This document shows positions 5,734 to 11,070 of a stretch of DNA of 64,000 nt, piece after piece. The number at the start of each line of letters is the position of its first letter. Position 1 is the first letter of the stretch. The notes beneath the pieces are model-generated. The model made no database searches, was not told where the DNA came from, and worked only from the letters and a program-made list of their open reading frames with translations. The position numbers and the translations under genes are program-made. The stretch is from Chloroflexi bacterium OHK40. GTDB taxonomy: Bacteria; Chloroflexota; Chloroflexia; Chloroflexales; Chloroflexaceae. The stretch is from the NCBI GenBank assembly GCA_004367505.1, contig SFCB01000005.1, positions 1 to 64,000 of the forward strand, written 5' to 3'.

Positions 5734-7122
5734 TCAATCGCGTCGCGTTGCGCCCTGGCGAGCGGCAAGCAGAATGCACTGTGCCAGGGTGGTGTCGTCC
5801 TCGGGTGCGATGGTGCGCAGATCGAAGCGCAGGCGCCCGTCGGTGATCCGTGCCACTACAGGTGGAGCCCCATCGCGCAGACTCGCGGCCAGGGCCTCGG
5901 CCCCGGGTGGGCCTGGCGCGAGCTCCACCCCCGCCGACGGCAAACTCTCGCCGGGTAGCGAGCCGCCACCAACGGCGCTCTGGCAGCCGGCCGGCGCTGC
6001 ATCCAGCCCTGCGGCACGCAGACTCGCGGCGAGGGACTCGGCCCTGGCCTGCAGGGCACTCAGTGGGGTGGCGATCATGCGCCACACCGGGATCTCGTCG
6101 AGGGCCCGGCCGAGCAGATAGCTGCGGAGGGTGGCCTCCAGGGCCGCGATGGTGGTCTTGTCAACCCGCAGGGCGCGGGCGAGAGGGTGGCGGCGCAGGC
6201 GCTCAACCAGCTCGCGGCGCCCGACGATCAGGCCGGCCTGTGGCCCGCCGAGCAGCTTATCGCCCGAGAAGGTGACCAGGTCGGCCCCGGCTGCGACGCT
6301 CTCCTGCACCAGTGGTTCGGGGGCGAGGCCGTAGGGCGCCGTGGGCAGCAACGATCCGCTGCCCAGGTCGTCGAGCACGGGCACGCCGTGGGCCCGGCCC
6401 ACGGCGGCCAGTTCGGCGAGGCTGGCCGTGTGGACGAAGCCCAACAGGCGGAAATTGCTGCTGTGGACCCGCATCAGCAGAGCGGTGCGCTCACCGCAGG
6501 CGGCGGCGTAGTCGTGGGCGTAGGTGCGGTTGGTGGTGCCCACCTCCACCAGTGTGGCACCGCTCTGGCGCAGCACATCCGGTATGCGGAAGCCGCCACC
6601 GATCTCGACGGCCTGGCCACGCGAGACGATCACCTCGCGACCGGCGGCCAGGGCGATCAGGGCCAGGTAGACGGCGGCGGCATTATTGTTAACGGCCATC
6701 GCGGCCTCGGCGCCGCTGAGCCGGGTGAGCAATGCTTCGAGGTGGGTATGGCGGCTGCCACGTTCGCCTTGGGCCAGATCGTACTCCAGGTTGGAGTAGC
6801 CGGCACCCACGCGGGCCATTGCCGCGAGCGCGCCAGCACTGAGCGGGGCGCGCCCGAGATTCGTCTGGATGATCACACCGCTAGCGTTGAGCACGGGCCG
6901 CAGGCTCGGGTCGAGCTCACGGGCCAGGCGCTGCTGAACGCGCGCCACGAGAGTGTCGAGGTCGGGCGGAGCGGGCGCGCCGGCGCGCAGCACGCTCCTG
7001 GCGGCCTCGAGCTCAGCCCTGGCGGCATCGCGCAGCAGGGCGTGGGGCGGGCCGGCGCCGAGAGCAGCGCGGGCCGCCTGGATGAGCCTGTCGGCGCTGG
7101 GAAGGTCGCGCGGGGTTGCCAT
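5734..7122 (-). CDS. selA: L-seryl-tRNA(Sec) selenium transferase
   Basis: SelA converts seryl-tRNA(Sec) to selenocysteyl-tRNA(Sec) using PLP and selenophosphate. The 462-residue product has the N-terminal LPSADRL segment, the NASGVIIQTNLGRAPLS region, GYSNLEYDLAQGERGSRH, and the PLP-lysine motif TFSGDKLLGGPQAG. Its length fits true SelA and not the shorter SelA-like ammonia lyases. I use the ATG at 7122. Neither selB, selD nor a tRNA(Sec) gene is visible nearby; the 238 bases after the gene were read on both strands without finding one. The gene stands between the MobA-like gene and a dispersed repeat. Confidence 0.87.
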   Translation of the reverse strand: MATPRDLPSADRLIQAARAALGAGPPHALLRDAARAELEAARSVLRAGAPAPPDLDTLVARVQQRLARELDPSLRPVLNASGVIIQTNLGRAPLSAGALAAMARVGAGYSNLEYDLAQGERGSRHTHLEALLTRLSGAEAAMAVNNNAAAVYLALIALAAGREVIVSRGQAVEIGGGFRIPDVLRQSGATLVEVGTTNRTYAHDYAAACGERTALLMRVHSSNFRLLGFVHTASLAELAAVGRAHGVPVLDDLGSGSLLPTAPYGLAPEPLVQESVAAGADLVTFSGDKLLGGPQAGLIVGRRELVERLRRHPLARALRVDKTTIAALEATLRSYLLGRALDEIPVWRMIATPLSALQARAESLAASLRAAGLDAAPAGCQSAVGGGSLPGESLPSAGVELAPGPPGAEALAASLRDGAPPVVARITDGRLRFDLRTIAPEDDTTLAQCILLAARQGATRRD

Positions 7123-7184
7123 AGGCGTGTCCTGGCTCGGTGGGGCGGTCCTGAAGCAAGAATCGCGCACCAGGAACGGGAGCA

Positions 7185-7254
7185 CCGCAAGCAGATGGCG
7201 TTCTGAGGCGCTTCAGCCCACCGTAGACGACTCAACCGTTCCGAATGATGGCTA
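7185..7254 (-). repeat. Dispersed repeat family A, copy 1 (supplies a stop codon)
   Basis: Read on the minus strand the unit begins TAGCCATCATTCGGAACGG and ends CTGCTTGCGG. The leading TAG is the stop codon of the nucleotidyltransferase-like gene. Related copies lie at 46961-47032, 59019-59088 and, in the other orientation, 36866-36937. Shared core: CGGAACGGTTG(A/C)G and GCGTCAGA. Confidence 0.75.
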
Positions 7255-8614: not shown

Positions 8615-9907
8615 TTATGTCCGTCGTAGCAACTCCAGGATGGTCGCGGTGAGCTTCTGGCTATCGTGGCGCAGCACGCGCACCGCGCGGCTTTCGGCAG
8701 GGTTGCTCAGCGAGGCCGTGTACTGGATCACCGACGAGGCGAGGTCGGCTTCGATCACGACTGCGCCCTCCACCAGGGCCCGCTGATGGGCCAGCTGGTC
8801 GCCGGGGAGTACCACCCGCTCCTCGGCCTCCTCGGGAGCGAGGTAGACGGGCGACTGGTTCGCGGCGGCGTAGAGCCGGTGGACTTCCGGGTCGATCCGC
8901 TGGGCATTGACGAGCACGTAGTCGGGCGTGAATCCGCCCACCTGCTTGATCGCGCGGATGTGGTCGGCCACGCTGAAGCCGGTTGTCCGGCCTGGTTCGG
9001 TCATCAGGTTGCACACATAGATGGTGCGGGCCTTGCTGTGGGCGATCGCCTGGCGCAGCTCGGCGAGCAGCAGATTGGGCAGGATACTCTCGAAGAGGCT
9101 GCCCGGCCCGAGCACGAGTGCGTCGGCATCGCGGATGGCCTCGGCGGCCAGGCGCGTGAGCTGGGGCGCCTGGGTAGCCCCTTCGAGGCGCAGGCGCCGC
9201 ACGTAGCGCTCGGCGATCGTCGGATCGAGGGCCAGGTGGCGCACGTCCATCACCGTGCCATCGTCCAGCTCTGCCAGCACCTGCATGGGCTCGGGGGTGG
9301 GCACCACATAGTAGACATTGTGCAGGTTGAAGAGCCCGGCGGCCCGGTAGTAGTACTCAACCGGGTCCTGCACGGGCACGATACAGGTGAGCCGGGCCAC
9401 CTGCTCGCCCATGGCGCTCAGGACGAGCAAGCCCGGGCCCCCCGAGAGGACGGCGATCTGGGGTGGGCTTTCGCGGCGGTAGCCCAGCACCAGGTCGTCG
9501 GCGCCAGCGCTCTGGTCGAGCGGGATTACCACAACGCCGCTGAGGCGCCAGATGCCCACCGCCAGCACGGCGAGCCCGGCAACCACCAGCAGCACGCCGC
9601 GCCAGAGCCGTGGGATGAACTGCAGCGTGATCACCGAGACGATCGGCGGTAGTCCCTCGATGGTGCGGTAAGCGTGGATGAACAGATAGGCCACGCCGAG
9701 CGAGAGCAGCACCACGCCAACAAAGGTGAGGGCGAGCGGCCAGGTGAGATGACCGAGGGAAGCGAGGCGACGGGTGATCGAACGCATGGCGTCTCGAGGA
9801 GTGGGCGTTCCAGAGGTTGCGATTGGCCGGGACAACGGGGCGCCAGGGCTGGCAGAGGATTGCGCAGGGCGTCTCACGCTGGGGGTGAGAGCGTGTCCGG
9901 ACGTCAA
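8615..9907 (-). CDS. YvcK/CofD-family protein with N-terminal membrane anchor
   Basis: The C-terminal two thirds match the YvcK (gluconeogenesis factor, UDP-GlcNAc-binding) branch of the CofD fold: IAVLSGGPGLLVLSAMG replaces the usual IGGGTGL loop, ADALVLGPGSLFESILPNLL and YVCNLMTEPGRTTGFS are near-canonical. Two hydrophobic segments precede it (about residues 58-80 and 96-116 counted from 9907), an anchor absent from Bacillus YvcK. Family members govern carbon flow into cell-wall precursors. The start is uncertain: a TTG at 9907 overlaps the upstream stop (TTGA) and has AAAGG in front; an ATG at 9787 would drop 40 low-complexity residues. It is the third gene of a tightly overlapping set with two phosphohexomutase-type genes. 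Confidence 0.78.
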   Translation of the reverse strand: MTSGHALTPSVRRPAQSSASPGAPLSRPIATSGTPTPRDAMRSITRRLASLGHLTWPLALTFVGVVLLSLGVAYLFIHAYRTIEGLPPIVSVITLQFIPRLWRGVLLVVAGLAVLAVGIWRLSGVVVIPLDQSAGADDLVLGYRRESPPQIAVLSGGPGLLVLSAMGEQVARLTCIVPVQDPVEYYYRAAGLFNLHNVYYVVPTPEPMQVLAELDDGTVMDVRHLALDPTIAERYVRRLRLEGATQAPQLTRLAAEAIRDADALVLGPGSLFESILPNLLLAELRQAIAHSKARTIYVCNLMTEPGRTTGFSVADHIRAIKQVGGFTPDYVLVNAQRIDPEVHRLYAAANQSPVYLAPEEAEERVVLPGDQLAHQRALVEGAVVIEADLASSVIQYTASLSNPAESRAVRVLRHDSQKLTATILELLRRT

Positions 9908-11070
9908 CCGCCTTTCAGCAGCTGGTCGCGCTGGGTATCGATTAGCGACCGCAGGCTCCCGCCGCTCCGCGCGACCATCTCGGCGCAGATCATTCCGGCG
10001 AGTACCGCGTCGGGGTACGAGGCATAGCGGCTGATGATGAACTGGCCATCGTCGGTGGCGCCAAGCAGGGGTGGGGCATGATCGCGAGTGATCAACTCCC
10101 GCAGCCGGGCCGCCGGGTCCGGGGCGACCTCGATCCGCAGGCCGGTGGCATCCTCCCAGGCCGAGAGGCGGGCAGGGCCGGCGAGGGGGGTGCCGGCTGC
10201 GGGCGCCGGGATCACCACGGGGCCGCGCAGGCGGTGCTGACGGGCCAGGTAAGCCGCCAGGAGCAGGGCCGTCTCGGCCGGGTCGAGCTGCTCACCGTTC
10301 TTGTCCACCACGGCGAGGGCGGTACCATCAGCCGAGCAGGCCAGGCCGAGGTGCGAGTCGCTCTCGCGGACGAGCTTCTTGAGCCGGTTGAGGCCGGCCT
10401 CGACCGGCGAGGGTACAAGCCTGCCGAAGAGCGGATCGGGCTCGCGATTGATCTCGATCGCCCTGGTCTGGCCCCCTTCGCCGAGCAGCGCGGGAACGAT
10501 CCCGGCCGTTGTACCGCTCATCGGGTCGACGAAGATTGTGAGCGGGGTGCGCCGGATGAGCTCAAGATCCAGGGCGGCCCGCAGGGCCTCCAGGTAGCCA
10601 GTGCGCAGGTCCAGACTCTGGTCGGGGGGCTGGTCGCCGGTGGGGGGGAAGGGGCCGGCGGCGTAGGGGCGTCCGGCGAGGGCATCGGCGCCCTCGGGCG
10701 GCTCGAGGGTCAGGCCGGTTGGGTCGGGGGCGAGCAGCGCGAGGCCGTTGTAGAAATAAGGGCGGTTCGACGCGGAGACGTAGAGCGCGCAATCGGCCAG
10801 GTGCTGGTCGAGCGCGTGGTGCAGAGCGGGGAGCGTGACGGGGCTGGCGGTTACGGGGGCGCGGAGGCCACGGGCCTGCAGCGCGGCGGCCACATCACGG
10901 GCGAAGAGCCCGCCCATAAAGCGGGTATCGTAGGCAACAATACAACTCAGGTTCCGGCGGGCCAGGCCATCAGCGAGAGCAGCGGCCCGTCGGCGCACCT
11001 GGTCCAGCGTGAAGTCGGCTGCGTAGACGGCCTCCCAGGCGTAGGCATAGGGGCGATAGCGGGAGCTCAT
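9904..11070 (-). CDS. Degenerate phosphohexomutase paralogue (domains I-III only)
   Basis: The 388-residue product aligns by eye with alpha-D-phosphohexomutases but has lost their chemistry. The catalytic-serine loop (TASHNP in active enzymes) reads SASNRPYFYNG; the metal loop (DGDxDR) reads ACSADGTALAVVDKNG, so the metal-binding aspartates are gone; the protein stops after RSGGSLRSLIDTQR at the end of domain III, without the phosphate-binding domain IV (RxSNTEP). It overlaps the intact mutase gene by ATGA and the yvcK-like gene by TTGA, so it is under clear selection to be made with them. It may be a regulatory subunit or sugar-phosphate sensor. Confidence 0.72.
   Translation of the reverse strand: MSSRYRPYAYAWEAVYAADFTLDQVRRRAAALADGLARRNLSCIVAYDTRFMGGLFARDVAAALQARGLRAPVTASPVTLPALHHALDQHLADCALYVSASNRPYFYNGLALLAPDPTGLTLEPPEGADALAGRPYAAGPFPPTGDQPPDQSLDLRTGYLEALRAALDLELIRRTPLTIFVDPMSGTTAGIVPALLGEGGQTRAIEINREPDPLFGRLVPSPVEAGLNRLKKLVRESDSHLGLACSADGTALAVVDKNGEQLDPAETALLLAAYLARQHRLRGPVVIPAPAAGTPLAGPARLSAWEDATGLRIEVAPDPAARLRELITRDHAPPLLGATDDGQFIISRYASYPDAVLAGMICAEMVARSGGSLRSLIDTQRDQLLKGG

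Follow-up and report, generated by a model that had tools for sequence, protein, structure and literature searches.

A four-gene row with a truncated phosphohexomutase

The window analysed here, a stretch of 64,000 nucleotides on contig C287 of the 6.9 Mb genome of Chloroflexi bacterium OHK40, has a run of four genes on its minus strand. The first, here called MUT (12446-11067), encodes an intact phosphohexomutase of 459 amino acids, recognised by its SASHNP, DGDGDR, GELSGH and RASNTEP motifs and by Pfam and NCBIfam profiles, and it retains all four active-site motifs when aligned beside the product of the second gene. That second gene, PSE (11070-9904), encodes a phosphohexomutase pseudoenzyme of 388 amino acids with domains I-III only, as judged from its ORF, Pfam matches, an alignment and a structural model. 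It is followed by YVC (9787-8615), which encodes a divergent YvcK/CofD-like protein (Pfam, NCBIfam, alignment and model), and by alt-GlmU (8568-7252), a UDP-GlcNAc diphosphorylase / GlcN-1-P acetyltransferase that scores 371 bits on TIGR03991 against a cut-off of 225. MUT is likely the phosphoglucosamine mutase of this cluster, a substrate suggested by the adjacent alt-GlmU. Beyond alt-GlmU lies a further minus-strand ORF (5734-7185), which reads like SelA, the L-seryl-tRNA(Sec) selenium transferase.

The original prediction had PSE overlapping both of its neighbours by four bases. At the junction with MUT an ATGA overlap is confirmed, but on the other side a four-base overlap requires that YVC start at the TTG at 9907. 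In the family alignment YVC begins with the ATG at 9787, which puts 116 bases between it and PSE, and on this comparison the ATG is preferred over the TTG.

Nor does YVC look like the ordinary YvcK that had been proposed at this place, as it scores 131.9 bits on TIGR01826, below the cut-off of 196, while a canonical YvcK (250 bits on the same profile) is encoded elsewhere in the source genome. YVC matches the CofD fold family over its second half, and two membrane helices are predicted at its N terminus; its model, with a mean pLDDT of 66.9, was used for these helices only. In Listeria GlmR, a D40A/D41A/N198A mutant is reported to have its uridyltransferase activity reduced about 100-fold (PMC10128056, section 9). 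When YVC is aligned to 2p0y, the first Asp of the GlmR active-site pair is kept, and none of 26 YVC proteins carries Asp where GlmR has Asp41, 23 of them having Pro. Judged by these residues, YVC may be a YvcK that has been remodelled or has lost its activity. Members of its family occur in f1 and f4, two families of the order, and G087 has a single distant relative. In f4, a second, shorter CofD/YvcK-type gene often stands after alt-GlmU (L138, L139, L140, L141, L148, L149, L071, L077, L092 and L098), and the cluster can hold two YvcK-type genes.

PSE has lost its catalytic parts

PSE had been described as a catalytically dead mutase without domain IV, and this was borne out by its intact ORF, its altered loops and its domain content. 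Domain I (PF02878, 49.1 bits) and domain II (PF02879, 60.2 bits) match above the Pfam cut-off and domain III (PF02880) falls below it (13.4 against 20.7 bits), while domain IV (PF00408) gives no Pfam match in the window protein and is absent in all 48 PSE proteins compared, that is, in those of 50 loci minus L078 (frame change) and L079 (run of N). In the alignment of these 48 proteins, the phosphoserine loop S/TASHNP reads SASNRP in the window protein (residues 99-104, positions 10759-10776 on the minus strand), with Ser101 at the phosphoserine position, and the metal loop DGDxDR is replaced by S-A-D-G-T-A within the degenerate loop ACSADGTA (residues 244-251, positions 10318-10341 on the minus strand).

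The same losses run through the whole family. The phosphoserine position is Arg in 23 proteins, Gly in 17, Cys in 6 and Ser in 2, and the window protein is one of these last two; thus, the claim of a dead site holds for the catalytic loops, with the reservation that this particular protein still has the equivalent serine. The His and Asn of the same loop are missing in 48/48. In the metal loop, the first Asp has become Ser (46) or Ala (2), the Arg has become Ala (46) or Ser (2), and the last Asp is missing throughout, while the middle Asp is retained in every protein. The Glu of the sugar loop in domain III (GExSGH/G) is likewise missing in 48/48, and each of the 48 proteins has all four of its ligand loops either changed or gone. 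Moreover, PSE stays below both phosphoglucosamine mutase cut-offs, with 116 bits against 439 on TIGR03990 and 64.7 bits against 447.55 on TIGR01455. It belongs to the phosphohexomutase fold superfamily by descent, as its domains I-III attest, and possesses none of the features that mark an active alpha-D-phosphohexomutase, namely the phosphoserine loop, the metal loop, the sugar loop and domain IV.

Thirteen active mutases share 37 invariant columns, of which PSE has lost 20 and kept 12, each in at least 90% of its proteins. PSE has in turn 36 invariant columns of its own across the 48 proteins, four of which, C43, R209, H240 and R280, hold residues found in 0/13 active mutases. Together with the retained Asp of the metal loop, these could mean that a remodelled site gives PSE some new function in catalysis or ligand binding, for instance around the four residues or at the SDSH turn that precedes the former metal loop, and since the four residues also fit such a new activity, they weaken the case for a subunit. 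However, the other 32 invariant residues are also found in active mutases, many of them being Gly, Pro or Asp of the fold, and we consider a new site unlikely.

The predicted fold and sugar-phosphate binding

The structural model of PSE (pLDDT 89.9) matches T. thermophilus 1tuo (Z 34.6 over 354 residues), a B. subtilis GlmM that lacks domain IV (7olh; Z 33.6, 338 residues aligned) and the PGM5-type structure 6y8x (Z 31.7). PSE is thus predicted to be a stable three-domain body in which the open fold is retained. A protein of this shape might still bind a sugar phosphate and act as a sensor, as vertebrate PGM5 could, and inactive herring PGM5 is indeed reported to bind glucose-1-phosphate (PMC7761743). 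PGM5, however, keeps its binding residues and PSE does not: besides the universal loss of the sugar-loop Glu and of domain IV, other residues have taken the place of the Arg, His, Asn and Lys that line the active cleft. As none of the ligand loops is left unaltered, a sensor of this kind is decidedly improbable, and the sugar-phosphate binding that had been proposed for PSE finds no support in the residues of the family.

Distribution, gene order and selection

To survey the class, 158 genomes were searched with a profile built from 39 PSE proteins. PSE was found in 51 of the 67 genomes of two families of the order (39/41 in f1 and 12/26 in f4) and in none of the other 91. The two groups of scores are well apart, as unbroken PSE proteins reach 475-619 bits and the best other protein 215 bits. 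The two f1 genomes without PSE are 86% and 82% complete, and in one of them a contig stops right before the place where PSE would be (L150). A profile search of 400 genomes of the phylum returned 31 matches at 1e-60, comprising 30 PSE proteins and one full-length enzyme (210 bits), and a pattern scan with one genome per species over 84,980 species returned 45 loci, comprising 44 PSE loci and one cyanobacterial full-length enzyme (L200). Among these PSE loci, one lies on a contig titled as Gracilibacteria whose length is that of the G016 contig. Genera named in the titles of PSE relatives are Chloroflexus, Oscillochloris, Chloroploca, Viridilinea, Roseiflexus and Kouleothrix.

Gene order was compared in 50 of the 51 PSE genomes, the wider neighbourhood of G026 being left out. 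Next to a separate PSE gene, and on the same strand, stand MUT in 47/49 loci, YVC in 47/49 and alt-GlmU in 38/49, the last being non-adjacent in all seven Chloroflexus loci. Both loci without an adjacent YVC sit at contig ends, as does one of the two without an adjacent MUT (L068), so that MUT and YVC flank PSE wherever the contig permits, with L041 as the single exception. At this locus, which comes from a metagenome assembly, all that is left of MUT immediately ahead of PSE is its first 27 residues (L041:4340-4447), through either a deletion or an assembly error. The distance between PSE and MUT was measurable in 47 loci and is a four-base overlap in 29 of them; YVC is usually separate. In the fiftieth locus (L074), PSE and YVC form one ORF of 807 amino acids; as the end of PSE is read there in another frame than in the sister locus L069, the fusion may be a frame error, and it was rejected as proof of contact between the two proteins.

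An unbroken, separate PSE ORF is present in 47 of the 50 loci. Of the interrupted ones, L078 has a frame change on a contig with a coverage of 3.4 according to its record title, and L079 contains 200 N. The dN/dS of PSE lies between 0.06 and 0.26 in 14 pairs (Nei-Gojobori, own script) and exceeds that of MUT in 12 of the 13 pairs that have both, which indicates at the codon level that PSE is under purifying selection, weaker than that on MUT. PSE is thus a conserved pseudoenzyme and not a decaying gene, and it is far from being absent or frameshifted in all close relatives. The conservation of gene order and altered motifs that the original prediction looked for across Chloroflexota holds in two families and does not extend through the phylum.

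A link with phototrophy was also considered. Of the 82 genomes of the order, 64 have the reaction-centre family PF00124, which shows no correlation with PSE, as it is found in most f4 genomes that lack PSE and is missing in two genomes that have it (G002 and G045). Most green filamentous photosynthetic bacteria keep PSE, and invariably within the gene cluster for a building block of the cell wall, a setting that suggests a regulator or adapter rather than an enzyme.

PSE descends from a GEESGG-type mutase

The original prediction took PSE for a paralogue of the mutase beside it. The two are only 28% identical, and a clade of PSE with MUT as its neighbouring copy is rejected (p-AU 7e-7). In trees built from chosen representatives (46, 33 and 21 rows), PSE instead groups with full-length enzymes from other families of the class that carry GEESGG (in one case GEETGG) in the sugar loop, with support of 100/100, and MUT groups apart from this clade with PgmG-like enzymes. 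Whether PSE falls inside or beside the GEESGG enzymes is a closer matter (p-AU 0.197), and with a PSE stem as long as 2.1-2.3 changes per column, its exact sister is unsure. In one genome, G087, two full-length mutases stand in tandem (L137:4984-7855), one of the GEESGG type and one very divergent, on another contig than the YVC relative of that genome.

The cyanobacterial enzyme L200 falls in the clade of PSE and the GEESGG enzymes. Used as a query, it finds two full-length copies with about 40% identity in each of two outgroup genomes (f2 and f3), its best match is PSE in 9/9 PSE genomes tested and MUT in two genomes without PSE, and the PSE profile finds no second match at 1e-30 in PSE genomes, except in two with a split gene. 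PSE is therefore the only survivor of its lineage in the genomes that carry it. L200 is below the NCBIfam cut-offs for both GlmM and Pgm. Three genes of this sort have been reported for Synechocystis, one of the GlmM type, one PGM and slr1334 (PMC10010611), and Slr1334 (cd05800) is reported to synthesise glucose-1,6-bisphosphate (PMC9426568). By elimination, the GEESGG clade is probably PGM_like2/cd05800, the glucose-1,6-bisphosphate-synthase kind. The finding sharpens the question of where glucose-1,6-bisphosphate comes from in organisms without a PGM_like2 enzyme, a question that has been raised for other bacteria (PMC9426568).

Two losses of PSE and the search for a partner

In a tree of YVC, from which 10 near-duplicate loci were left out and whose outgroup branch is very long, f4 forms one clade (100/100); nested within it, the genera without PSE, g21 and g31, mark two separate changes. 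Their operons (L092, L098, L138, L139, L148 and L149) keep MUT, YVC and alt-GlmU in this order. The module can thus do without PSE, which is what one would expect of an accessory protein, although the two lineages without it, like its higher dN/dS relative to MUT, also weaken the reading of PSE as a subunit. The same two features, with the frame change at L078, could be taken to mean that PSE is a relic on its way to being lost. This we regard as very unlikely, since nearly all loci have an unbroken ORF, dN/dS is well under 1, and the interruptions at L078 and L079 coincide with low coverage and a run of N.

If one of the neighbours were the partner of PSE, its constraint might differ where PSE is gone. 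Changed positions amount to 2.0-3.9% in MUT, 3.5-4.7% in YVC and 3.1-9.2% in alt-GlmU in the genera without PSE, against 0-3.8%, 0-4.7% and 0-3.0% in the lineages with it, and this search for relaxed constraint in the three proteins gave nothing pointing to a partner. Only the alt-GlmU of g21 stands out, and it is also more diverged overall.

A partner outside the operon is suggested by GlmM, since the B. subtilis protein without domain 4 is reported still to bind and inhibit the c-di-AMP cyclase CdaA (PMC8573169), and PSE might regulate CdaA with the same truncated architecture. A CdaA domain is present in 75 of the 82 genomes of the order; being nearly universal, and found also in the genera without PSE, it makes co-occurrence with PSE uninformative. 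In the source genome, the PSE and CdaA genes are on different contigs. More to the point, Arg126 of B. subtilis CdaA, which is needed for the contact, corresponds to Gln in 6/6 CdaA proteins of the order (L201-L206), with the position placed by counting back from the aspartate of DGA. The cyclase motif DGA itself reads DMA in the same six proteins. With the contact Arg replaced, regulation of CdaA is the least probable of the alternatives and deserves very little credence; MUT and YVC are better partner candidates.

Proposed role and comparison with known systems

PSE is dead, retained under selection and held in a constant place, with an active mutase on one side and a YvcK-type gene on the other, and the role of regulator or subunit put forward in the original prediction thus survives as its best reading. 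A regulator or adapter role is likely. More specifically, we lean, at somewhat better than even confidence, towards PSE being a non-catalytic, protein-binding subunit of a UDP-GlcNAc module, descended from a GEESGG-type mutase. A role through contact is plausible because a stable three-domain body remains and because GlmM without domain 4 acts on CdaA by contact, and the frequent four-base overlap makes MUT a candidate partner.

On this reading, PSE started out as a full-length GEESGG-type phosphohexomutase, probably of the glucose-1,6-bisphosphate-making kind, which in the ancestor of the two Chloroflexia families lost domain IV and its catalytic loops. It took up a permanent place in an operon beside MUT, an active mutase to which it is unrelated, the membrane-anchored YVC and alt-GlmU. 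The surface of domains I-III would bind MUT and/or YVC, and this contact, in whichever direction it acted, would adjust or localise the steps from GlcN-6-P to UDP-GlcNAc. A bolder version, possible but doubtful, is that a lineage making glucose-1,6-bisphosphate, which activates phosphohexomutases as a small molecule, has turned into a protein activator or adapter. PSE, its dead and last surviving member, would bind an unrelated mutase and form with YVC and alt-GlmU a membrane-tethered UDP-GlcNAc assembly.

A clade-restricted, conserved bacterial pseudo-phosphohexomutase in a UDP-GlcNAc cluster is real, and the literature searched yielded no previous description of a pseudoenzyme of this kind conserved in bacteria. 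If PSE is a regulator, filamentous anoxygenic phototrophs would control their wall precursors at a point unlike the known GlmR-GlmS and GlmM-CdaA links.

Each of the known systems resembles the PSE module in part. The GEESGG-type mutases of other Chloroflexia and of cyanobacteria share its clade and the same order of domains I-III, but own all four active-site loops and domain IV, of which PSE has none. YvcK/GlmR shares the CofD fold family with YVC, which differs in its score below the TIGR01826 cut-off, its predicted membrane anchor and the lack of Asp at the GlmR Asp41 position. B. subtilis GlmM F369, bound to CdaA in 7olh/7ojs, likewise consists of three mutase domains without domain IV; however, it is engineered and its active-site residues are otherwise intact, whereas PSE is short and inactive by nature, and the CdaA proteins of the Chloroflexia order lack the arginine in question. 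PGM5 (aciculin), the inactive phosphoglucomutase of vertebrates, shares with PSE the superfamily, the status of pseudoenzyme and a matching fold, and it is supposed to work by binding proteins, but in the account of PMC7761743 it has kept its substrate binding, whereas PSE has lost the ligand loops.
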